From the NCBI GenBank assembly GCA_009602725.1, contig WELB01000215.1, forward strand, positions 110,124-151,222: 41,099 nt of DNA, given 5' to 3'. Within the stretch, counting starts at the first letter, position 1; every line of letters starts with the position of its first letter. Both the position numbers and the translations under genes were made by a program. Shown here in pieces: positions 1,677 through 29,080 of this stretch. The notes below the pieces were generated by a model. It worked only from the letters and a program-made list of their open reading frames with translations, was not told the origin of the DNA and ran no database searches. The DNA comes from Spirogloea muscicola (Eukaryota > Streptophyta > Zygnematophyceae > Spirogloeales > Spirogloeaceae).

Positions 1677-4600
1677 TCAATGGTCCTCACGCTTGACTCC
1701 CGCCACCGCCGGCGCCGCCGCCGTGACCACTGCGGACGATGGTTCCGGGGGTGCTGGCGGCTTCCGGTCGGGGTTGTAGACGCTGTAGTCCCCAAATTCT
1801 CGGTGGCCGCTGCACCACAGGCATGCCTATCTGGGCCGCTTTACATTGCTCCTCCAACAGAGGCTGCTATATTAGCATGCCAACTTACTCAAGACCCTTA
1901 TGAGCTGTGAAACCAGACTTGACTCTTCGTGAAGTCGGCCTCTTGATTCCAGGACTGACGAGAAGAAGCACATCATGTGGGCAGTCTCATGAGCAGCATA
2001 CCAATGTGGTTTTTTTCTCAGAAAGATGTAAGCACAAACTGTTGCACAATTACTAGGGTAGCAGGATTCCACGGGAAGCATGGACCAGGTGGTCATATAG
2101 TGGTGGAGTGTGCACGAAGACAACGAGCTTCATCTAGCATTGATGTTTATGGCTTTGACCATACCTGTGCTCAACGGCCCAGCCGGCGGGCAGGAATCGC
2201 GGGCGCACGGCTGCCACGAACGTGCTGCGCCATACCTGGGAGAAGACGCGCAGCGCGCCCTCGCCGCCCGACGCCAGCAGCACGCCCACAACACGCCGCC
2301 CGTGCTCCGAGTGGCCCAGCGGCGCCTCCGCCTCCCGTCGGGCCGCCGCCTCTGTGGCACTGCCGAACCTCGGGCCCGGGAGTATCGCCGCCACAGTCGA
2401 CGGCAATGACGTCTGCTGCAGGAGCTCCCTCCCCCCTTGCTTGGCTCCACAGTTCTTCAACTGCGCTCCACATTTGTTCCCTGTAGCTCTCTCGCCTTCT
2501 TCCTGCAGCTCAAGCTGAAGGCTCTGGCCTCGACTGTCCACGCCACACAGTGATGCCAGGCCGTTCACACTGTCAGTAACTCTGTGGTGATCCGCTTGTC
2601 CAGCCAGGCGCAACTTGCCATGCTCCGTGAAACTAGTAAGATCATCGTCGTGGCCTCCAGCTCCCGTGATCTGTCCTCCTTCCTGCCTCAGTGTTCCTCC
2701 TACCAACCCAGCATGTGCAGCGGCTTGGTCGTCCGTCTTGCCAGCCAGCGATGCAGCCCGCCGCAGGCCTCGGAGCACCTTTGGCCGGACCCCTGCGTGC
2801 AGCAATGCCTGCTCCAGGTCGTCTCGACTTACGTCCTCCTTTCCGGTGTACATCCTTAGGACCTGGCGGAGTCAACGGCCAGGGATACGACCAACTGAGC
2901 ATGAGAGAAGAGCATTATCAAGATACTACACACACACATATGGAGCCAATTGGCAGGTTTGACCAAAGACGAAAGATGCAGCCAGTTAGCATATACAGTC
3001 AAGTTACACCAATTAGTTTCGGTGGAGATCGGCCTGCGCCAATTGCCCCTTGTGACATGAGGTCCAAGTCAAGCGCTCGGATGACATGAGACGAGACTTT
3101 GAAGGGCGTGCAACATTGACGTGCTGCTGTGATGACTGCCCACCCACCTCCTCGAGCTCCTGAAGCCGTGCTGGCGGCATTGACTTGCCGTGCCGGAGCA
3201 GCGCCATGGCTGACCGGCGCAGGAGCGACGGCTCCACGCCGGGCCTCCTTAACTCTTCGCCGCCTGCGGCCTCTGCCGTTATCTCCAGGCCGCCCAACGG
3301 GGCGCAGATGCGGGCGGGCACGAGGGGGATGCCAAAGTCCTCGGCCACCTGGCGCTTCTGGCGCTCTGCCGCCTTGTGGGCTACCTGCCAAGTCAAGTGG
3401 CACAGCAGGGCATCTTCATAACCAAGGCAAAACAGCCATCAGTACTGGCATATGCTTTGGCATGTGAATGAAGCCAGGGGGTTGCAGCTAAAACAGTTAC
3501 TGAATATTAATATTGATGATGATCATCCTAAGTACACACATCGAATATTCTAGCACGGAAGCACAGTGCTGAATGGCGAGCCCCATAGAGCACATGTGCC
3601 AGATCCAGAGCCTGAATTCTTATCTCAGTGACTTAACCAAGAATGTAATAGCAAATCAGGGTCCAGAAGTCGAGGTCCAAGTCACCTCATGACAGTCGAT
3701 GCAGAGGAGCACAATGTCGTGGCTCCGGTGGCTCTTGAGGTGCTCGGGGAAGTACTGGCGGTAGCACGATGGCACCAGGCGGTAGCGCAGGTAGTGTCCG
3801 GCCTCGCCACACCCCACGCAGCGGTTGGCCTTGGACTGGATGTAGAACTCGTTCGCCGAGTCCTCTGGCCGCCCATTGGGCTCGAAGAGCAGCCGCACGC
3901 TCGGCGGCTCTTCGTCGAGGTACTCTGCAAGGCTCCTCTGCACGTACCTAAGCCATCACACGCACACTAAATATCTCATAATGGATGTTCAGGAGCAAAT
4001 GCCTACGTTGCCAAGCTGATATCTTTGGGTTAGTGGCAAGTGATGCCTGACACTCTTGACTTGTGAGAAGCTTATTGTATTCTCTGGGGGCACTTCCACT
4101 CTGGCTTTGGATGTCAAGGGGCCAGGATATGTAAGACCGAGGCTGCATTATGCATTATTCTGTTTCAGGAGATGGTCAAAATTGTGCCAAGCTAAACCAT
4201 ACATAATGAAGATGTCCATGCTGAATGAGATCAAGCCGTACAGGGCCACTCAGAGGTTCTGATCTTGGAGGAACCACCAAGGAGATGACCAGCATCTCAC
4301 CAGTCAAGCTTTTTGCGGTCGCAGTAGCAGAGCAGCCGCCCGTCGCCCGCGTAGATCCGGCAGTTTTGGTACACGGGGTTCTTGCACGAGAACTTGGACA
4401 CAAACTGCTCCCGCATTTGCACATAGTCCTTGCGGCGCCACGCCCTGGGGGCACCGTTGGCAACTGGTTTTGCTGACAGCGTACTCAAAGCCGCAGACAA
4501 AGCCCCATTGAGTGGTCTCGGCAGCCCACTGTTTGCAGCCGACGAGGCTTCCTCACAGCTGTCGCCTGTCTCGCCAGCTGTATCCAACGGTGTGTCAAGG

Positions 4601-7600
4601 GCGAGATGCGCAGCAAGTGGGTTGCTCTGAGACTCCTCCCTGCTTCTTCTATTTGGCTCGTCTCTTGCCATCTGGATGAGCTGCATGAGGGAGGGCGCAT
4701 GCCTCCTCAGCACCAGCGAAGGGGTCTGCTCAGCCCAACTCAGAGCCTCGTCTAAGGGCTTCAGTCCATCATCAACGCAGTGGTCGTCTTTTCTTAACGC
4801 AGCCAGGTCCGCGGTCCGGATCATCGAAAAGAGGTCTGCTTCTGTGGCGGGCGCTGATGCTGCCACCGCCATCAGTGCGGCGTCCGAGAGGACGTGGCGG
4901 CTGCTCTCGTCCTCGGTGCGTGCCTGTGACAGGCCGTATCTGCTTGTTAATATGGCCATGTTATACTTATCCAATGGTTTCTGAAACATCACTCTATTGC
5001 TGTGGCTTTCAAGGCAGATGAACAAGGCAAAGCAAGACCCAGTATCAAATTTAAATATTGAGGGTTAATACTGAGACTGTGAAGTATAATAGCTTCAATA
5101 AGAACGCATGCGACTTGTTAGTGGCACCTACTTACAAGCCAAAGGAAGTCAAGACTAAGCAGCCACTCATGAGAGACTTGGTCCACTAAGCTTCGAAAGA
5201 ATCAGGTAATGGGAGACATTGTTGTTCAAGGGGTTGACAGTGTCTTACGGACAAGGCAATCTCTCCAAGCGCACATCTCCCGCACAATGATGGCCAGCCT
5301 TTCATCTGCAGCCTGACCAACAGGACAACCAAATGCTCAGCCTTAATCAAAACAAACAGCAATGACTGCAAATTTCTCCGATTGCTGAGCAAGCTGGGTA
5401 GGAATTTATTCTTCAGGTGACTACACAAAAAAAGTCCTGACCTCGACACTCGATTGACGTGCAAACAGGGCTGGTGCTTTGCAGATAGGGAACCCTTGAT
5501 TATTCACAAATACTTCACATGCATCCTCATAGAGCTAATTACTGAGCATTTCAGACCGAATTGCACAGAAGGAGGAAAGTTGGGGGCAGGTCAGTATTAC
5601 AGGCTGGATCCACTTGGCATTAAAGTAACCACGATGTAACCATGCAAGTGAGCTAGGATGGGCAAATGCTCACCATTGGCTGGCCATTGTGCTTGACCAT
5701 GTAGCGGGAGAGCAGGGAGGTCGCGACCGTGTCAGCCGAGAACTGCTCCTTCTTGTAGAGGCTCAGGGTGGTCAGGTTGGACCTCCCTGCAGCCCTCTCG
5801 TACAAACTGCATCAACTCTCCCACTTAGACGAGGAAGTCAGAGGATGGCCTCGGTTAGTGGTATACTTGCCTCCTACTACCACCACTTAAGTCTGCTAAT
5901 TTGACTGATAAATTGCTAAGGTGCTCATTGATATTTACGCACGTCCTATTTTTGGGGCTCCCAGAAGACGCGTCCTGGCTCCCAGACTGTTCTGCATCAG
6001 GTGTAATCCCAGGTTTCACCTGAACTTACAGCATGTTGAAAGAGCTCAGATAATGCCTAAAATGCTATGTTCTGCAACTCCCCAAATTATGCCCTGCAGG
6101 GCAGAGTGCCAGCAAGAGTGTATGCTGCTGATGACGAACGTCACAAAGACTCCTGTCAAGAGGCTAGGAGAGTCGCACTGGCACGTCTCGAGTCCCTATT
6201 CACTGCTGACGTTTGGGGTTCGGGGTTAAGGAGTTCCATCTAGTGTCCAGAGGTATGAGCTTCAGAACAAAGTCAAGGCATACATTGCAAGAGCTCCAGG
6301 GACCGGCGGCACGGAGGAGCTCGTGGCGTAGCTGCGCCGCAATGTGCAGGAGAAAGTGGGCGTCAACCCGGGCATACGCCAGCTGGCCGGGAGACAGCGG
6401 TCTCCTTGTCCAGTCGGACTTCTGCAGTGCACAGCCGCAGGCAGCTGAACTGCATCAGATTCAAAAAGTATGCTTTTCTACCAGCAGGCAGGACCCATTG
6501 ACGGCCACAGTGACATCCAGAAGTTTCAATAGTCAGGTTCTCAGGCAGGTGAACGAGACCAGTACTGGGGCTCCTCGAAGTATACAAGACTGTGAAAAAG
6601 GATATGAAAATAAATAGAGAATGAAGTATGTCATAATGCAATGTTGAACGCACTTTGCAGATGATTGGGAGAGGCCTCTGCCAAGGAGGAGCGTGCCGAG
6701 CTTATAGAGGCCAATGGAGGGCCTTCTTGCTCACATATGGATAATTATGCAGGTAACATGAGGTGCTACCATACCTGATAGCGTTTCTCGGTGTTGATGC
6801 CACAGTATTGCGGAAGGAGGTATGCTAGGGACCGCTGGGGCTTTCCCAGCACATCGCATGCCTGCCAAACAACAATTGCAATCGATTGCTTGTTCCTTTC
6901 TAAACAAGAAATGCAACAATCAGTGTAACAGGAATCTCAGGTTGATGCTATACTAGCTCGAAAGTTTCCTATAGGAGCAACAAGCGGGTGCCACCGCAGC
7001 ATCCATAAACACAAGAGAGTTATGAGCCTGTTGTTTCTGAGTCTATCCTGCAATATGAAGTGAGAGCAATGACATGTGGGCTACCCATTGATGGAGGTGG
7101 GGTGCTGACCCTGGCAGTATCAAAGAGGTTGACAACGTAGATTTGGAAGTCACGCTGGAGCCACAGCACGTCATTGTCTGCTCCATGGAACACCTGCAGG
7201 CAGCAGAGCACGCTTATGGTCCTCAACACTCTCTACGTCTAGATACTGAAACATCAGACGAACCTGCCAACACTGCAGCTCTGAGCTATGGAGACCTCAT
7301 GGACAAGACCAGTGCAACACTAGAACTGCGAGTAAAGTCACGGTCTTTATGTGGAGCTGGTGATGTACTTTGGTTTGCACCCAACTCCAACCAACCGGGA
7401 CTACAACTGATAAACTATGACACATCTAGCAGTCATCAATCTTATCCATTCACTCGGTCCTTAAAGGGGCATAGGCATGGATATATACTTTGGTGATCCT
7501 AGGGTCGGCGAAAATGGGCCGGAGGAGGGGAATAAGGTCATGGAGACAAATCGTGTCTACCAGAAAGTCCCAGCCTGGGATTGAAATCTGCTGACTTAGA

Positions 7601-9023: not shown

Positions 9024-10613
9024 GCCAAGCTCAGCTGCTGCTCGCCCTAATAGTTGCCGACCTAATAACGACCTAATTGCGGCTCCACATTAATCTCTCA
9101 GCTCTCGAGATGGCCTTCTGATGCTGCACGTCGTTCTGAAGGGGAGCCGTCGTCCTACAATAAGCTCTTACTGGTCGACGATTCTTCTTCCGCAATTTTT
9201 TCCAGTCGATGTCACACCAAAGCATGTGGGATTTGGCTCATGCACTTAGCAGACCATGGGCAAACCACCACCCTCGCATCATGTGGGGATCCCGTTGATT
9301 AAAGATGTGTAATCTAATAATCGCGTGGATCTAATATTCGCGAGGATGCTTGCATGAGCTAACTCGAGCAGGACTTGGCATCAAGCAACGCCTGATCTTC
9401 GGCGGTCATTGATCACGTACTGGTTGAACAAGGGCGCGTCCAAACTGAGAGCAGTGGCCGTGAGAGGCCAGCTCAAAGAACAGACAAGGTCTGAAAGGGC
9501 GGATGGCGCAAGAAGCACAACACTAAACGTTAAGACGTCAGCAAGAAGGCTCTCAGTAACCTCTAGTCAGTAAATGGAGGTCGGAATTATCCAATTCAAC
9601 ATGCCCCCAACTTGCAGCACCCCCCTCCTTAGGCCAGGGTTTCCTCCTTAGGCCAAAGGTCATACAGTGTTGTACTCCCGTATGAAGGTACTGAGTACGT
9701 GAAAAGCGACCAACTCAACAACGATAACCGTCAGAGCTCGAGGCCACTGATTGATAAAAGGGTTCCATTGCGTCATAAACAAGGCCATAAGAGAAGAGGC
9801 TGCTCAGTGGACGGATCAGAAGCGCATGATCTCCGGTAGGCTCACCAAGGGTTCGAAAGTGCAGCATGAGCTTGGGCGGATCCTTATGATGAGCCTGCTT
9901 GACTGTGAATCATCCGATAGTATTTGAATAGACATTGACATCCCCTAGGGACATGACCTGGCAGCTGGCTTGGCAGGGCACGGCTACTATACGGAGCTAC
10001 ATCGTGACGACACCAAAAGAGTGCCAGGGGTATATGAATGAGTTGGACATGACCAGTATTGACAGTATTGACAGTATTTTACCCACCATTTCAAAGAAAC
10101 GCCATTTCAAGTAACGACTTTACATTCTAGTGTAATTTTGCAGCAGGCCTCTTTTGTTACAGTGAGCTGCAAATCGTAACTTAACGCATGTTTCATCTGC
10201 ACGTTTTTCTGGTAACACTCACAATGTATCGTGCAATATGGTAACTTGTAGCTATACCAAACTGTCATTGTGTAGGAGACTACACGAATTGTTCGGGTTT
10301 GAGATGCAATATCATACCAGATTTGTGAAGGGTTCAATCTGCCTCTTACGCTTCGACATTATTAGCATCAACAAGACGAGCAAAACTAGCACATCGAAGG
10401 TACGGATCTGTGATCTTGTGGATTGTGGCGCTTACTACTAAAGGCAAAACGACAGTCATAGAATGAAGAGTTCGCCGACGCATTTGTTGCAAATGTGACG
10501 GGTCATTGGCCTGTTGCCAGGCCTGGCTATGGCACCGCCAGAATACATGAGGCACTTCTGCACCTATCAGGATCCCTATTAGGATCCTAAGTCATGGGCG
10601 CTGAGCTAAAGGT
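9024..10613. other. Gap between the RRP6L3 start and the transferrin 3' end
   Basis: This holds the presumed RRP6L3 promoter and the transferrin 3' UTR. One repeat copy lies at about 9434-9580. The part from 10100 to 10440 is A/T-rich, with modest open frames on both strands. The minus-strand one (10337-10107) is rich in Cys and Tyr and could be an old gene fragment, but no splice-consistent model or known family supports it. Short direct repeats (GACAGTATT, three times) occur near 10058-10078. Confidence 0.5.
9434..9580 (-). repeat. Dispersed hairpin element, GCGCG-tail variant
   Basis: On the plus strand it reads GCGCGTCCAAACTGA, then GTGGCCGTGAGAGGCCAGCTC (hairpin), then AACAGACAAGGTCTGAAAG and GGATGGCGCAAGAAGC, ending near CAGTAACCTCTAGTCAGTA. 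The same order occurs at 34.6 kb. This is the minus orientation of the family, inserted just upstream of RRP6L3. Confidence 0.65.
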
Positions 10614-13396
10614 TCAGATGAGCAGATGGGCAGCGAGCAGAAGGGTACAGGAGACAACAGCAATAGCCATGCTCGCAGTGGTGACAACCGCAGAGCTGGG
10701 AGGGGCAGCTGTAACAGGCGTGGAGTCCAGCTTCTTGACGTTGGTAATGGCGTCATACAGCGGGCCGATGTAAGTGATGGCGCTGGTGCCATTGGGAACG
10801 CGCTCCAAGCCCAAGGCTTCTGAGTCGAACACGTATCCCATGGTATTCTTCCCGGACCAGAAGAGCGCGACAGCGCGAGTGTCGGTGTTAAACTTATCCA
10901 TTGTGGCCAGGAATTCGTTGATTTCGTCCTCAGCAGCACTCGGAGCTACCATGAGGGCGTGCGCCACCGTGGTTCCAAAGTTGCAGGTGGCGTAGTCGGT
11001 GACATCAGCACAGCCACCCTGGTCATGAAAGAGCGACACCGATCAAACATGGTTTGTCACTTACGTGAATCTGCAACTATTTGTTGAGAACACCTCAACA
11101 CTTGGTCTAGGAGGCAGTCAATGATCGGCAGTCTAAGCTCAAACAAGACGTATATCAAGGCTGATTGCAGAGTCAACTCTTGCGGCTGCGTTAGCTGAGT
11201 TTGGACATGGGGTGTAGGCCAACTTCTCACCGCAGGGCAGACAAGCTTGTAGCTGTCAGCAGTCTCGAGATTTTTCCAGCTGACGTCAACCAGGGGCCCG
11301 CCTAGGGAGTAGTCGATGGCTGTTGTGTGCTTGTTGAAAGTTACGTATTGGCTTCCACCCTCCACCATACACCGGAAAGATCCTTCATAATTGTAGTACT
11401 GGAAATTGAACAAGGTACAAGCACATCAGCATCACATGTTTGATGACGGGTCCCAAGTAGACTGAGAAGCGAATGTCAAGCTGCTACAGAATGGATTCTT
11501 TCTCAGGGGCAGAGAGGAGGTCGAGAGACTCATAGGCAGCTTGCTTACAGTGTCTGTGTTGTCACAGCCGCTTTTGACAGCACAGCCGGAGCAGATTTGG
11601 CCATCCCCATCATCATCATCAGAATCCTCTGAGGGTGCGCATGTCGTGGAAAAGAAAGCCTCCACCGTTTGGATGTCAACCTCCACACTGCCATTGCTGC
11701 TCAAGGTGCCCCAGGTATTTTGAAGTGACACTCAGTACAATATGAACTTCAACCGCTCACCACAAATTTTCAGGTCGCTACTTTGGAAGTCCTGCAAGTC
11801 TCTTGAATTGCATCACAAATACTTAACGTTCATATGCTTAACACTGAAGCACAAACAAGGCAGTGAGTATAAGGTAAAGGTAGAGTACTTGTTGACAATT
11901 GGCATGATGGGAGGACTGCCACTGGTCATGTAACTGACTGGCAGGTACCAGCCTTCATCGTCGTGGTAATAAGTGTGGCAGGAGTGATAGCCCTTAAGGT
12001 CTGCCAGAGTCATACCCGTCCTGTGAAGGCACCCAGCAGCAATCACAACTGGATCAGGCAAAGTTGACTGGAGCCCATGCTCATGCTGATGCAAGCAATG
12101 GCGGCACCAACAAATTCCTACTAAGCCAGCCGCGGCAAAGGGCGCCAATTATGCAAGCTCCTTAAAAATGTTCTTTTGGCAGTGAGCACTGCATGATGCA
12201 AGAACACTTGGAGCTTTGATTTGGTCAATCAAAAATTCCTTGATGGCAGTCAGCCTAATCTGCCGGGGAACTAAGCCCAGTATACTTGGGCTTGGGACAC
12301 AGCAATAAAAAAGGACACAGAAAAGGACACAGGGTTGCCTTACTTGCAATCAGATGCATGGACAACAGCGACCGCGTAGTTCAGCACGCCGTCGCCCGGC
12401 AATTTTTCCTTCAAAAGGGGGTACAGGCCATAGTCCTCGTACGCGTCAAAGACGGCACCAGCATCCAGAAGAACGTACTCAGCTTCACCTTTGCCGACCT
12501 TCTCAATGCAGTCATCATCGTCATCGCCCTGGACGCTGCACATTGTTCACAGGCATTCATGAGGGTAAAGAGGATAAGAGGCAACACTCAAAGCCAAGAT
12601 GAGTACATTCTTCTGGGGTGATGCTTCCAGATATGCACACTACCTCAAATCTTGCGAATCGCACAAGCTTCCATCGCCATAGTGTCGTTTGGCATATGGG
12701 AGCTACAGCATATCGGCAGATAGGCTCGCATGCTTGACTGAGCTAAGGTACAAGATGACTGAGGAGCGGGCCCCACCAGCTCCAGGTGTGGTCATCCTCG
12801 GAGTCAAGCGACTTAAGGATCGCGGTCATGTTCAGGCAGGTGCCAAGCTCCTCCTTCAAGACGCAGAACCGACGGTCTGCACAGCAAAATCGCACCTACA
12901 GCAGCTGTCAGCTCGTTCAAGAAAACACCAACGACTGGAGCTGCATTAGCGGCTGAAGTCGGACTAAAATACAGCGAAGAATGACAGCGCAACCAGCTCA
13001 ATTCACTAGCAAACTGAATAGCGGCTGTGAAGTTGCAACAGTGCAGTGACAGTGGCGTCTCCAAGACACCTAAAGAAGGCTGAACCCTCTCCACCGTACA
13101 GGCCCACACCAGCAGCTCAGCGAGCGGGCAATTTGGAGTCACTCTTAAATGTAAAAGCCAGCCTGGTGCATGAAGAGGGTGTTCACGACTACGTGAGCGG
13201 AGCCACAGGATAGGCAGACAGGGCGCTCGTACTGATCCAGAGTATCAGCAATGTAAGGCAGACAGACGGGCTCACGCTCGTTGGTGTTGGGGGCGTCGTT
13301 GTCGTCGTCGTCGTCGGCGCGGGCGCCGGGAGCGGCGGCCAGAAGGACGGCGGCGAGGACCAGGAGGCCCGAGACGGCGAGCCGGAGCCGGGCCAT
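10614..13396 (-). CDS. Single-lobe, secreted, GPI-anchored transferrin
   Basis: Eight minus-strand exons join to 480 codons: 13396-13193, 12895-12777, 12535-12344, 12020-11889, 11801-11761 (or from 11791), 11730-11549, 11398-11231, 11018-10614 (TGA). There is a clear signal peptide (VSGLLVLAAVLLAAAPGARA), one transferrin lobe (about 69-435) and a C-terminal Thr/Pro/Ser stretch with a hydrophobic end typical of a GPI signal (MAIAVVSCTLLLAAHLLI). All four iron ligands of the family can be placed: Asp132 (LLDAG), Tyr161 (NYAVAVV), Tyr294 (YNYEGSF) and His366 (VAHALMV). The anion-site Thr188 is present (SCHT), but the usual Arg falls on Asp192. Acidic runs (DDDDDND; GDDDDD; SDDDDGDG) and a short Cys-containing segment before the lobe are unusual. 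The expected role is surface iron binding or uptake, as for algal transferrins. The boundary between exons 4 and 5 is the only uncertain join. Confidence 0.92.
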
Positions 13397-13544
13397 GGCG
13401 GCGGCTCGGCGGCGGCTGCTGGCCCGAGGAGACGGCGGGGAAGCGACGGGCCGAGCGGCTCTGCTAGTGTAGTTTGGAGCGGCGGGGAGACGGCGGACGG
13501 GGAGGGAGTCTGCTGATGGGCACCGGAGTGGGGCGGGCTGCTGG

Positions 13545-13790
13545 GGGCTTTATGGGGGCTTCTTAGCGCTTCCCCTGGCCCCCTTCTGATCCTTTGTTGA
13601 TTCTTTTTTGGGCTGGCTTTTCCAGCCCCTATTCTCAATGGGCGAGCACCTTCTTCTGATGGTGGGCCGAGTGGCTTTCCGAACCAGCATCTCCGACCTA
13701 CGGCTGCTCAGCAGAGGCTACTGAGTGATTCGCAGCTGCTTTGCTTCTCTGTGTGCTCGTTTTTCTCAGCGTTTCCGAACGGCGGGGCTC
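13545..13790 (+). mobile_element. Two adjacent truncated element copies upstream of transferrin
   Basis: The first copy (13561-13665) begins in the 3' UTR block TTAGCGCTTCCCCTGGCC, carries the TGGGCTGGC-TTTT-CCAGCCCC hairpin near 13608-13629 and ends ATGGGCGAGCAC. The second (about 13682-13790) begins in the coding end: read in frame it gives FRTSISDLRLLSRGY-stop, then GTGATTCGCAGCTGC, and breaks off near TTTCTCAGCG. Both lie within 150-400 bp of the transferrin start codon, on the opposite strand, and may supply its promoter sequence. Confidence 0.75.
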
Positions 13791-13797
13791 CCACTGA

Positions 13798-14240
13798 GTG
13801 CCCGGCGCCGCCATGATGGCCGCCATCGCCGCGGGCGCGCGCCGCCACGGCGGCAGCACGCGCCCGGCACGTGCCGCTCCGGGATATTCGCCGGGGACGC
13901 GCCGGGATATGCTCAAAGTCCCCGCCCAATCCCCGGCCCGCCGCCGCCCGTCGGTGGTACGCGGCATCCGCGGCGCGAGATAGGGCTCGGGATCTCGAAT
14001 AATATCAAAGACTGATACCAAGATACTGGAATGCAGGGACGGCTTTTACGAGAACCGGGAAAAGGGGTGGCCGGCGTTCGAGCTTCCCGGTCTGCACGTG
14101 GACTGCTTGACCCGGCCTTGTTTCTCATCTGCCAAATCGACTGAAGGCCTTGCCAGCACCCGACTCTGCAGCAGCTGCCGCCCTCTCGAAGCTTGGGCCT
14201 TGGGCCGCTCTTCCGAAGGCCTTAGCACAAAGTACCTTTG
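13798..14240. other. G/C-rich stretch with a short ATG-led frame
   Basis: A start-like GCCGCCATGATGG lies at about 13807-13820 and opens a 57-codon frame (Arg/Ala/Pro-rich) ending at 13983. It could be the first exon of a gene divergent from transferrin, but no downstream exon fits, and C/G-rich sequence opens frames by chance. From 14150 the sequence passes into repeat fragments. Confidence 0.25.
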
Positions 14241-14470
14241 CTTTCTGCTCCATCCAGCTCCTTCAGTCTTTTTCCATTTCTTTGGGCTGGCCGCTCTTCC
14301 GAAGGCCTTAGCACTTAGTACTTGAGGATAGGGGCTGGACAAGCCAGCACTTAGTACTTGCTTTCTGCTCCATCCGGCTCCTTTGTCCATAACTTTGGGC
14401 TGGCCTCTCACAGCCACCAGTCAATCTGGCCGCGCTTTCTCTTCCGAAGGCCATACAGCAACTTCGGGAA
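14240..14470 (+). mobile_element. Chimeric repeat copies with hairpins and GGCCGCGCTTTC tail
   Basis: Repeated blocks CTTAGCAC(A/T)AGTAC, TTTCTGCTCCATCC and TTTGGGCTGGCC occur twice within 200 bp. The second unit has GGGCTGGCCTCTCACAGCCACC followed by the tail CAGTCAATCTGGCCGCGCTTTC, a tail variant also found at 15.8, 17.0 and 30.96 kb. The tandem arrangement suggests local duplication or nested insertion. Confidence 0.6.
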
Positions 14471-15650
14471 TTAAGACTCGGCCATGCTGCACATCACACG
14501 CTACGAAGCCCGAGCTAGGGCACGAGGGAAATTTCGTGTGTAACAGGGTAAGAGGAGGCTGGCCGCTCGCTGCGCCTGCTCGCCTAGCGTAGAGACGCTG
14601 CCCAAGGCTGCTGAATTACAGCTGAATTTCTTGAGTGTTCTCCGGAGTTCTTGAGGGCCTTCCGGAAATCTCAGGGCCTTCCGGAAAACTCGATGATGCT
14701 GTTTGGGGTCCTCTCACCAATACATCAGTAACCAGTCTTTGAGCTTGTCACATGATTACATGCTGCAAGTGTGTAGATCTACCATCTAATACAGCGCGTA
14801 GTAATAGAGCTGAAGCACAGTCCTTCGCTCTGCTGTAGTATTGCAGTCTCAAGTGCGGAGTCAAGCTGCAGACAGCTGAACAAAACTGCAGGACAGGTCT
14901 TTGCAAAATATGCAGCAAAAAGCAAGCTCCTCTCCTCTTTACCAACCACCAACTTAAAGCTCAATTGCACTTGCCGAAAGTAAGTGTGCGATGTGGAATC
15001 GGCAACGGTTAGTAAGACATCACTGCTATCGAGTGAGCGACCACTTTTGTGGATCTGGTCGGTTCAGACGAGAGGGGTGATGAACGATGCTACCTCTCAT
15101 ACCCGTTCCTTCGTCTTGCCTCTGATTTTCGAGGTCAACGTGCTGCTCAGGGGCTTGATGAGTCCTCTCCAAGAGACTTCCTGCGATGGCGACCTGGTGC
15201 AGTTTTCACGATTCGTGCGGCTCGATTGGGCTGGCAATCATAGCCGTGCGCTCTGTCAAAGAAGAAGAAACAGCTTCTCGGGGACTCGAAGGCCGCGCCA
15301 GTAGCCGGCGGCTGCAACAGTGTCCCGCCCATTAATAGATAACTCGTCGACAAGCAGCACGTACCCGATTCCTGGCATTAGCGAGGTGCCGCCGCCGAGC
15401 CACCACACGCTAACGCCTGGACGCACTGACGCCTTGACGCGGCGGCACGAGGGCGGCCAGTACAGCTTCGTGGCAAGCACGCGCCCGCGGCGTGGCCAGC
15501 GCACGCGCGGCGTGTGGCGCGCTCGAGGCGACGCGGGCGCCGCCGCAGCATCCTCCAGCGTTGGCGTCAGCCTTTCCCTACCGATTTACACATGCTGTGA
15601 GCCAATCTCTTTTGAAGTGAGCTGTCTCAGATAAAGAAGAAAGTAGTGCT
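14471..15650. other. Unassigned stretch with overlapping open frames
   Basis: No recognisable gene. There are modest open frames at 14984-15304 (plus) and 15320-15634 (plus), and opposite the latter at 15504-15256 (minus; GVSVWWLGGGTSLMPGIGYVL). The part from 15380 to 15560 is G/C-rich, so frames open on both strands. The minus frame reads somewhat like a protein, but I cannot place it in a family or join it to other exons. Confidence 0.3.
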
Positions 15651-19589: not shown

Positions 19590-19920
19590 GTGCCTGTGTG
19601 CTCTGGCCTCTGACTCTGGCCAGGGGACCCACTTCCAGGAGCCTAGCATCTCTGATCTGCGGCTGCTTAGCAGGGGTTACTGAGTGATTCGTAGCTGCTT
19701 TGTATTTTTGTGTGCTTGTTTTTCTTAGCGCTTCCCCTGGCCCCCTTCTCGTACTCTGTTCATTCTTCTTTGGGCTGGCTTTCCCAGCCCCTATCCTCAA
19801 TGGGCGAGCACTTTCTTTGTGCTCGGCCGCCGCTCAGTGGCCCCTGTCCTTGTCCATGCTATGAGGCTGGCCTTTCACAGCCATCGCCTCCGTCTGGAAG
19901 AGCTTCTTCTCTGTCACAGT
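19590..19920 (+). mobile_element. Well-preserved plus-strand element 3' end
   Basis: In frame with the TGA at about 19679 it reads SGQGTHFQEPSISDLRLLSR-GY-stop. This is followed by GTGATTCGTAGCTGCTTTG, TTAGCGCTTCCCCTGGCCCC, CTCGTACTCTGTTCATTC, the hairpin GGGCTGGC-TTTC-CCAGCCCC near 19771 and the tail TCAATGGGCGAGCACTTTCTTT. It serves as a reference copy for the 3' organisation of the family. A second, shorter hairpin copy with a CTGGAAGAGCTTCTT tail follows at 19863-19910, just before the first cysteine-rich paralogue. Confidence 0.8.
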
Positions 19921-20032
19921 CTATACTGTCGCCCCGCGGCACTCGCGAGACAGGCCAGGGTCCGGGCTCGCAAGTTCTTCCTGCTCTTGTCTCAGCTGCC
20001 GCAGCTGGTGCCCGCTAGCGACTGGCGCAGAG

Positions 20033-21278
20033 ATGGCCGTCGGACAGCCCGGCGGTAGCAAGCAGTGGGTGCAGCTCGTCGCGCTTCTCTTTGGTGCAGG
20101 GGCCCCTGCTTGCGTCCGAGCTGCCAAGCACGAGCTGCAGTACGCCATATTCAGCGATGACAGCGGGGAGCTATTCTATGCCAAGGAGGTCGCGGCGGGT
20201 CTGACGCTGGACAGCCAGGACTGCCTCCTTGTTCATCACAGCGGCTGCACTGCCAGAGCCAAGTGCGCATGCAACAACTCCGAGTCTAAGACGTTAGCAA
20301 CATCTGCTCCAGCGTTGTCCTCTCGTCTCACATGGCCATTGTGAGTTGAGCGTCACAGCAGTGTCAAGCACAGCCAAGAGATGATGTCACTATGTAAGAG
20401 GAGCATGACCATTTTTGCAATGTGAGCAGGTATTGCAAGATGTGACATACATGAGGCACTGAGCCACACTATGGATCGTCACAGATGGCGGTGCATGACT
20501 TGCGAGGGTGGCGACCACGTGGCTGCTGACCAGCACACTAGTTGTCACGTCACGTTTGAGCCTATGGAGGGAGCTTTCCTGGTTCGACTGACCTGCAAGG
20601 CAATGATCACCTAACAGAGGGTGTCTTATTGATGCTCTTATTGATACTGGTTACTATCCAAGCAGATTCCCCAAGTCCCTGCGGAGATGTAGCTGGCCAC
20701 ACGAGTTGCTTCCAGCCAAACGACCTCATCGCCGAAGACTCTGCAATGATATTCAGGAGCTTTTTGAAGGGTTACGCCGAGAAAGGCTGCTCGAAACTGA
20801 GACTTGCTCCAATGTGGACTGCAAGCCCAAGCCCTGCTCAGATACTCCTGGTGGCACAGCAGGCATTGGCTGCGGTTGCACGGGCACTCGCTGTTCTTTG
20901 TCAGGCGAAGGTCCAGGTACACGCTGCGCTACTTCTGTACACCACTGTGGTTGTTGCCTATGACAGTAGCATCCATACTAGATCTGCAGTTTGCTAGCTG
21001 CTCCTCTTTGACTTGCATCGATGTCCCTACGTTGAAGAGTTGTTAGAACTCTCTGCTCTGTGTCCGTGCATTGATGTCTGTTTGCTAGGAGTCGCGAAGT
21101 TGCTCTTGTGTAGCCAACTTACTTGTCCAAGCTAAGGAGGCAGAAGGTTCCTGACGACTAGGATAACATTATGTACTTGCACTAGGACGATGTGAATGCC
21201 GTGATGTGGGCGCCAAGCATGGTAGGAGCAAGTGCAAATGCCAAGGACTGCCTGGTGGCTATGCTACTCCAGATCGAG
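20033..21278 (+). pseudogene. Cysteine-rich secreted protein family, copy 1 (frameshifted)
   Basis: Exon 1 (20033-20262) starts with ATG and encodes a signal-peptide-like N-terminus, then ELQYAIFSDDSGELFYAKEV and DCLLVHHSGCTARA. Exon 2 (20485-20916, or ending 20910) continues WRCMTCEGGDHVAAD, CHVTFEPMEGAFLVRLTC, then meets an in-frame TAA and a frameshift near 20612-20640, where TATTGAT is duplicated. After the shift, DTGYYPSRFPKSLRRCSWPH and RRLCNDIQELFEGLRRERLL match copies 2 and 3. Exon 3 (21186-21278) gives CECRDVGAKHGRSKCKC. All splice sites and phases match those of the other copies. No known family is recognised. Copy 1 looks like a recent pseudogene, or the lesion is a sequencing error. 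Confidence 0.65.
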
Positions 21279-27735: not shown

Positions 27736-28581
27736 ACGAAGGGTTGCAGTCTCCAGCGCAGCCACAACTGCCTACGGTTCCGCCGGAACCGCCGCTGCAC
27801 TGCTATTGGCAGCCATCATTTGAGCACAAGAAGCCACCACCTGCTTGTCGCCTCTCGCGTTGCAGCCCTTCGTAACGCTCCTGGATTTCGTTGCAGAGCT
27901 TTGTGCGATAAGGCCGGAGTGGAGGGACACGCTAATGCGGCCAGGTGCACTTGCGGAGCGCTTTGGAAAAGAGCTTGGGGTAGTAGCCTGTATCTACGAG
28001 CGTGGAGACTCCTGTCATGTCGTTACGAGCCTGACAAGTCAAACGAACTAAGGAGGCTCCTTCCACGGGCTCAAATTTGACATGGCAGCAGGTGAAGCGG
28101 TCAGCCGCCACGTGGTCCCCTGCCTCACATGTCACACAGCGCCATCTGCCACATCGACAGAGGAGTATTGAATACAAGGTCCACATTGCAGGAGATGTAC
28201 ATGAGACGCCCGGCTCTGCAGATCTATGCAGACATATATGAAAACACATTGTTGGGACTGCGTAAGCTTCAAGTTACGTGACGGACGGGAGTGCGCACGC
28301 AAGAAGTGATGGCAGTAGCAAGGGGATCGTTTGTTTATTCACCTTGCCCTCGAAGTGCACCCTGTGTGATGCACCAAGATGCAATCCTCGCTGTTAGTTC
28401 TTTGGCCGCTCGGTACTACTCTTGCTTGAAACATCTCCCCTGTCTCGTCGCTGAGGATGGCGTACTCAAGCTCCTCCTGGGCATCGACACAGTGGCAGCT
28501 GAAGGGTGCAAGAGTAGCAAGCAGCACAAGATACCGGAGGAGCAGCGGCTGAGCTTCGGAAGCCATCCTTAATTTCGCCAT
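27736..28581 (-). pseudogene. Cysteine-rich secreted protein family, copy 2 (two in-frame TAG)
   Basis: Exon 1 (28581-28343) encodes a signal peptide (LLLRYLVLLATLAPFSCHC), then ELEYAILSDETGEMFQARVV and DCILVHHTGCTSRAR. Exon 2 (28145-27736) continues WRCVTCEAGDHVAADRFTCC, FEPVEGASLVRLTC, VSTLVDTGYYPK and RKCTWPH. A TAG stands where copy 3 has GAG, and a second TAG lies in the CxxQC region where copy 3 has a Lys codon. The reading frame otherwise stays aligned to the splice donor (phase 1, as in copy 3). The pattern of lesions without frameshift suggests recent loss of function. A 3' exon is uncertain. Confidence 0.65.
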
Positions 28582-29080
28582 CTGCGCAGCCGCAGTCTGG
28601 CAAGTCAGATTCAGGCGCGTGAGTGCCGGCGGCCCGAGCACTGCGAGAGGGTCCGGAAGAAGCAGAGAGAGAATAGGGGATAGACGAGCCCCGGAGGCGC
28701 ACGGGGAGGACAAGTGGCAGGGGAGGGAAGAGTTGTGCACTGATTGACACAGAGAACAGTAAAGAGAAAAAGGAAATAGCTCTTCCAAAGTAAGGCAATG
28801 GCTGTAAGAGGTCTACAGAGGGCTAACGTGGCTAAGTGTGAAGGCAAGCACGTCAGCCGCCTGCGGGGGAGAAGGGGAGGGGGGAGGGGGAGGAGGGGAG
28901 GAGGGGAGGGGTTGGGGAGGAGGACAAGCGTGTAGAGAGAACGACGCTTCCAGGAAAAATCTAGTGTTGAAGAGCTTCACTCTCGGAAAAGATGTGTATT
29001 AAGAGATGGGGACGCCCATGTGGCCAAGTACAAAGGCAAGCACATTGACAAATGTACGTCACCTGCTGCTAAGCTGACCC
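28582..29080. other. Upstream region of copy 2, with polypurine tract and repeat fragments
   Basis: The presumed promoter side of copy 2. It contains a G-rich polypurine tract at about 28862-28922 and a repeat block AAGAGATGGGGACGCCCATG...GCAAGCACATTGAC (28999-29050), also found at 35.95-36.0 kb, which is the tail region of one element subfamily. No gene. Confidence 0.5.
28862..28922 (+). repeat. G-rich polypurine tract
   Basis: Runs of GGGG separated by A or GA over about 60 bp on the plus strand. The minus strand is correspondingly C-rich. At least four G-runs are close enough to allow a G-quadruplex. Confidence 0.85.

Follow-up and report, generated by a model that had tools for sequence, protein, structure and literature searches.

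A single-lobe transferrin gene with an altered iron and anion site, and its paralog with a complete site, in the green alga Spirogloea muscicola

The transferrin family is known mostly from animals and Dunaliella, the transferrins of Dunaliella salina being multi-lobe proteins. The locus described here comes from a green alga, Spirogloea muscicola, whose introns, genome size of 153 Mb and 68 hits to the chlorophyll a/b-binding proteins (1 of 14 controls also matched) point to a photosynthetic eukaryote, and lies in a stretch of 41,099 nucleotides that was analysed as a whole and is called the window below. It encodes a transferrin lobe that stands alone and bears an aspartate at the position of the arginine that anchors carbonate, and it raises the question of whether such a lobe would still hold iron in the ordinary way. 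The original prediction had answered that all four ligands hold iron and that only the anion chemistry differs. This inference fails because the position of hTF Tyr95, one of the two tyrosine ligands, holds Asn126.

Gene model, family and protein ends

The gene was recovered on the minus strand at exactly the predicted span, 13396..10614, with the ATG at 13396 and the stop codon ending at 10614. In place of the eight exons and 480 aa predicted, the alignment of the window gene (on contig C215) with the two other copies that this assembly contains, C248 (L009) and C288 (L010), supports seven exons and a product of 421 aa, the exon boundaries having been hand-picked by conservation across the copies. 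In DNA, C248 and C288 are 82-86% identical to the window over the main matched blocks; all seven exons are open in all three copies, and the products of C248 and C288 are about 423-424 aa long. Compared with the 421-aa model, the original prediction numbers Asp and the first Tyr 34 higher, and the second Tyr and His 59 higher.

Exon 1 (13276..13396, on the minus strand like all the others) holds the ATG, a signal-like peptide and an acidic, Asp-rich stretch, and its ATG and donor, GTGAGC, are conserved in the three copies and in a paralog on contig C3, called C3 below. The lobe starts in exon 2 (12777..12876) with HRRFCVLKEELGTC..., which aligns with hTF VRWCAVSEHEATKC, and continues in exon 3 (12344..12535), which is 192 nt long in all four genes and carries LDAG, with the Asp ligand, and LNYAVAVV, with the lost Tyr ligand. 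The anion-site helix, SCHTYYHDDEGW, is encoded by exon 4 (11889..12020); exon 5 (11549..11696) uses the same acceptor as was chosen in C3; exon 6 (11231..11398) holds Tyr235 within YYNYEGSFRC; and exon 7 (10614..11018) holds His307, the GPI-like C-terminal signal and the stop. Two candidate additions to this model were rejected. Readthrough of exon 1 stays open to residue 83 in the window gene, and in C248 and C288 a 4-base gap loses the frame and a stop follows after 71 residues; a possible 31-nt exon in the intron that follows exon 4 carries one extra base in C248.

A Pfam scan assigned the protein to PF00405 (E 1.4e-44, 153.1 bits against a cut-off of 20.3, profile positions 4-326 of 328), the sole family listed for it, and gave no profile match to PF07692, the phytotransferrin or Fea1 family to which we take the ISIP2a and FEA proteins to belong. 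Those phytotransferrins, described in passages of PMC7972479 and PMC7676907 as algal surface iron proteins and functional analogues of transferrin, are another family than that of the window protein. At an E cut-off of 0.001, a phmmer search of PDB sequences yielded 94 different ones, of which the best 60 were inspected; the top one is melanotransferrin 6xr0 (E 9.9e-61). Transferrin matches numbered 38 in the genome and six on C215, and all six fall inside the gene, giving one lobe only, where a melanotransferrin would have two.

The N-terminus is signal-like, the 19-residue windows that begin at residues 4-7 being hydrophobic, and the C-terminus consists of a Ser/Thr/Pro-rich linker and a hydrophobic tail that ends at the stop with no cytosolic part; outside the 40 residues at either end no other 19-residue hydropathy window exceeds 1.6. 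Judged by hydropathy, these ends are consistent with GPI anchoring. The prediction of a single GPI-type lobe that lacks the Arg of the anion site finds support in the one-lobe matches, the hydropathy of the tail and the Asp at the Arg position.

Several further features of the window and the genome were recorded. Besides the three copies of the present locus (C215, C248 and C288), another transferrin-like locus also occurs in three (C145, C61 and C284), as does a flanking open frame, whose copies are 92-94% identical to that of the window; the triplicated loci are 82-88% identical over the main blocks, and the assembly has the look of a set of three related subgenomes, for example those of a hybrid or of a mixed culture. 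The open frame at 4297-5064 (minus strand) matches the HRDC domain (24.6 bits, with a cut-off of 23.8; E 2.5e-5) and has three copies in the genome. Two open frames, at 19865-20344 (plus strand) and 28339-28812 (minus strand), have in common a 47-residue stretch with 26 of 47 residues identical, following a part that is hydrophobic by eye, and neither has a Pfam match at E 0.01. A short repeat, TTCCAGCCCCTNTTCTNNATGGGCGAGC, lies at 13620-13647 and at 14 further places (15 at no more than three mismatches, none expected), and a 37-base repeat form with GGCTGG...CCAGCC, in which a hairpin is possible by eye, has 4246 occurrences with no more than two mismatches across the 153-Mb genome, against none for the reversed control. 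Rfam at gathering scores gave no match in the window.

Residues of the iron and anion site

An iron-binding transferrin lobe is taken here to have the ligands Asp, Tyr, Tyr and His and a carbonate held by Thr and Arg. These six positions were read from a MAFFT alignment of the four algal genes (the window gene, C248, C288 and C3) with six animal lobes, some of them partial. On the minus strand of the window, Asp98 (codon 12463..12465), Tyr235 (11387-11389) and His307 (10959-10961) correspond to hTF Asp63, Tyr188 and His249 and are kept as iron ligands, and Thr154 (11972..11974) corresponds to hTF Thr120 and is kept as an anion ligand. Asn126 (codon AAC, 12379..12381) stands at hTF Tyr95, where C3 and the six animal lobes compared have Tyr, and an iron ligand is lost; Asp158 (codon GAC, 11960..11962) stands at hTF Arg124, and the anion anchor is lost with its charge reversed. 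Four of the six key residues (Asp, one Tyr, His and Thr) are retained, with one Tyr and the Arg missing. Neither the set of four iron ligands nor the carbonate-holding pair is complete in any of the three window-type copies: Asn126 holds the place of Tyr95, though 4 of 10 printed phmmer alignments set Tyr127 there, and Thr154 is kept beside an Asp158 that holds the place of Arg124.

At the anion site the predicted Asp at the Arg position, with the spacing kept, was borne out, both in the MAFFT alignment and by the 12-residue motif SCHTYYHDDEGW, which is identical in all three copies. Asp158 stands opposite Arg (Ser in the C-lobe of melanotransferrin, MTf) in all seven pairwise lobe alignments, and the MAFFT, profile and C3 alignments likewise set it at hTF Arg124. 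Asp159 and Glu160 adjoin it, Gly161 is kept, and the hTF Gly121 position is Tyr155. A six-frame scan for the pattern C[HYN][TSA]...GW found one motif each in window positions 10000-15000, L009 and L010 and no second one, and therefore no alternative exon that would restore the Arg in another splice form was seen with this pattern.

The iron ligands required closer reading. Of the four that had been predicted, Asp, the second Tyr and His stand; the first Tyr does not, since the residue named Tyr161 is Tyr127 of the present model and lies at hTF Tyr96, next to the ligand position occupied by Asn126. The MAFFT alignment with the six animal lobes and C3, the profile of the six animal lobes (in the alignments of both the window protein and C248) and BLASTP with C3, ungapped around the residue (NYAVAVV), all place Asn126 at Tyr95. 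The printed phmmer lobe alignments do so in 6 of 10 cases (MTf N, hTF N, hTF C and three ovotransferrin N) and set Tyr127 opposite the ligand Tyr in the other four (MTf C and three ovotransferrin C). Pairwise local alignment with seven lobes put Asn126 opposite the ligand Tyr in four (MTf N, ovotransferrin N, hTF N and C3); the other three gave Tyr127 (MTf C), a gap (ovotransferrin C) and Val124 (hTF C), and the outcome was the same at three gap settings. The exceptions to the register are all C-lobes, in which the loops beside the motif differ in length. C3 and the C-lobes of ovotransferrin and hTF carry Phe at the position of hTF Tyr96, and the ligand list in the excerpted part of PMC9957567 does not include hTF Tyr96. 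Because exon 3 measures 192 nt in four genes and the match to C3 is ungapped at 67% identity, there is no room for a register shift. A realignment that would rescue the Tyr ligand, favoured by some C-lobe alignments, was rejected on the strength of that ungapped alignment and the equal length of exon 3, and among these sequence comparisons it is the ungapped C3 alignment that decides for Asn126 as the putative equivalent of Tyr95.

A paralog with a complete site and selection on the variant

The paralog C3 (L017), a nearer relative that came out of a protein search of the alga's own genome, encodes 427 aa that are 67% identical to the window protein (265 of 394 aligned residues), and its seven exons match those of the window gene in number and phases. 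Common to both proteins are the single lobe, the signal-like and GPI-like ends and the same 14 lobe cysteines; C3 has Tyr (VLYFGVAIV) and Arg (SCHTGYHRASGW) where the window protein has Asn and Asp, and in the MAFFT alignment its site is complete, with Asp, Tyr, Tyr, His, Thr and Arg. A single-lobe GPI-type transferrin in this genome does not, therefore, by itself imply unusual anion binding. A DNA search with the last exon of C3 gave four matches, namely C3 itself and the three window-type copies, and C3 is therefore single copy in the assembly at that sensitivity.

Other transferrin-like loci were read in pieces, as unassembled gene fragments, and among the transferrin-like groups read the full set of site residues is found in C3 only. 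At the C7 locus the first Tyr is kept; Asp is replaced by Asn, the second Tyr by Pro, His by Lys and Arg by Gln, which has an Arg immediately before it. In the partial C39 locus the second Tyr is replaced by Ala and His by Lys. At the C145, C61 and C284 loci Thr takes the place of the first Tyr, Ala that of Thr and Ser that of Arg, and in C147 and C33 the second Tyr is replaced by Met. Two of these loci were noted in their own right: L011 (C145), at about 2980-6020, is a transferrin-like gene of another type, which has changed site residues and, as judged by eye, more than a single lobe as well as a transmembrane segment and a tail, and L018 (C39), at about 4060-5190, is a C7-like transferrin relative of which the second half alone was recognised.

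Among the three window-type copies dN/dS was 0.068, 0.096 and 0.073 by NG86, at dS 0.145-0.201, and 0.084, 0.118 and 0.078 by YN00; against C3 it was 0.174-0.200 (NG86) at a dS of 1.15-1.31, which is near saturation. These codon comparisons show the window gene to be under purifying selection. In the tree, the branch of the variant stem (0.27, support 0.985) and that of C3 (0.25), joined with a support of 1.000, are alike, which therefore gives no sign of relaxed constraint. The window-type copies break one of the 32 positions common to C3 and all six animal lobes, Tyr95, and five of the 45 common to C3 and at least five animal lobes (hTF 64, 95, 105, 124 and 243); C3, for its part, differs from the animal lobes at five and at seven such positions, respectively, at which the variant matches them, and no site residue is among these. 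With two site positions among the five broken (hypergeometric 0.125), an excess of broken positions at the site is suggestive and not strong. Because C3 has the complete site, sequence comparison makes the window gene the derived copy, that is, a derived and conserved duplicate of an ordinary single-lobe transferrin.

Proposed role, alternatives and relation to known transferrins

The explanation that we consider likely overall is that the window gene encodes a constrained, duplicated surface variant of a single-lobe transferrin without the canonical Fe(III)-carbonate site. Duplication would have separated the variant lineage from the paralog with the complete site; in the variant lineage the first Tyr ligand would have changed to Asn and the carbonate-anchoring Arg to an Asp flanked by Asp and Glu, and the lobe sequence, the 14 cysteines common with C3 and the two hydrophobic ends would meanwhile have been retained. 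The variant protein would lie outside the cell and form no canonical high-affinity Fe(III)-carbonate complex, C3 would take on ordinary iron capture, and the variant lobe would stay apo-like, with an accessory or binding function at the cell surface, or would alternatively be a weak metal binder via its remaining Asp, Tyr and His. In this account the sequence, the exon structure judged by conservation, the residue changes, the paralog and the purifying selection are observed, and the surface location, the loss of canonical iron binding and the division of labour are steps that we infer. The lobe most likely lacks canonical carbonate-anchored iron binding, and since the fold is kept, two of the six site residues are lost and a sister copy is complete, the job of the protein is probably other than ordinary iron capture. 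Contrary to a flat reading of no metal at all, three of the four iron ligands and the Thr are kept in the lobe.

Of the alternatives, the one that survives best, unlikely as we consider it, is that Fe(III) or another hard metal is bound in a new mode by Asp98, Tyr235, His307 and a carboxylate of Asp158 (or of Asp159 or Glu160), which would act as a built-in anion. In its favour, Asp, Tyr and His are kept in all three copies, and the Arg has been replaced not by a neutral residue but by a DDE cluster that is fixed in all three; the carboxylates of this cluster could, however, face the solvent. The strongly acidic lobe (63 D+E versus 21 K+R) would fit the same mode, but C3, with its ordinary site, is likewise acidic (54 versus 24), and bulk charge is therefore no sign of a new site.

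Next in order, and also improbable, is canonical binding in a weakened form, in which carbonate would sit on Thr154 and the helix end, Asn126, water or Tyr127 would replace Tyr95, and surface iron would be easily released. Such binding would draw on the retained Thr154, Gly161 and three iron ligands, and passages of PMC7804310 and PMC3125230 cite work in which binding is weakened by substitutions of the Arg, but the loss here is double, and one of the two changes reverses the charge where the anion must sit. Fainter still is the prospect that, with the change of Tyr to Asn and of Arg to Asp within the DDE cluster, a protein carboxylate replaces the synergistic anion and makes the protein a bicarbonate-independent surface metal binder beside C3, for example in low-carbonate habitats. 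A decaying pseudogene or an assembly error, which the loss of two normally conserved residues might suggest, is very improbable and was set aside, as identical residues and open frames recur on three contigs at a dS of 0.145-0.201 and a dN/dS of about 0.1.

A surface variant without the canonical site, the reading preferred here, can be set beside known lobes. According to passages of PMC7804310, the C-lobe of melanotransferrin (MTf, CD228) binds no iron, its Asp, Thr and Arg being changed, and transferrins with single Thr or Arg mutations are impaired. MTf is like the window protein in that it can be membrane-anchored and has an inactive C-lobe with a changed site; it differs in having two lobes, at 29-31% identity to the window protein, and in its C-lobe both Tyr remain and Asp, Thr and Arg are gone, whereas the window lobe loses one Tyr and the Arg. 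Passages of PMC3125230 present cod OMP as a monolobal protein, linked to otoliths, in which one Tyr is all that is left of the key residues for iron and anion. Compared by that description, fish OMP is, like the window protein, a single lobe in which residues for iron and anion are missing, and it took another role, but it is an animal otolith protein with nearly all site residues lost, and the window lobe has lost two of six. The same passages state that Arg124Lys hTF still binds iron and releases it more easily, and that cod lobes have Lys or Thr at the Arg124 place, so loss of the Arg alone need not abolish binding. The MTf C-lobe and fish OMP thus indicate, in these parts of PMC7804310 and PMC3125230, that transferrin lobes can lose the site and yet persist. 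Among green algae, reference titles in PMC12207447 and passages of PMC7676907 point to a plasma-membrane transferrin in Dunaliella salina, and the parts of the searched, mainly openly accessible literature that were covered describe no green-algal transferrin with such a site change.

Searches for relatives and for other iron systems were also made. One profile scan each of viral contigs and of bacterial and archaeal contigs gave no relatives of the window transferrin; the genome contig collection being bacterial and archaeal, absence there says little. Fea1 gave no match in the alga's own genome, but the control genomes gave none either, so that this negative carries no information; an exon-by-exon search for FTR1 gave no match in the own genome at E 0.001, with 4 of 14 controls matched, which does not prove that FTR1 is absent.

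Transferrin lobes with lost site residues are already known, as passages of PMC7804310 and PMC3125230 describe, and the altered site of the window protein overturns nothing in that record. The present locus adds single-lobe GPI-type transferrins from a photosynthetic eukaryote to the transferrin family. With C3 it forms a natural pair, in which one genome and one architecture combine a complete and an altered iron site, and, if both genes are expressed, this pair would offer a direct test of the function of an algal-surface transferrin lobe without the canonical site.
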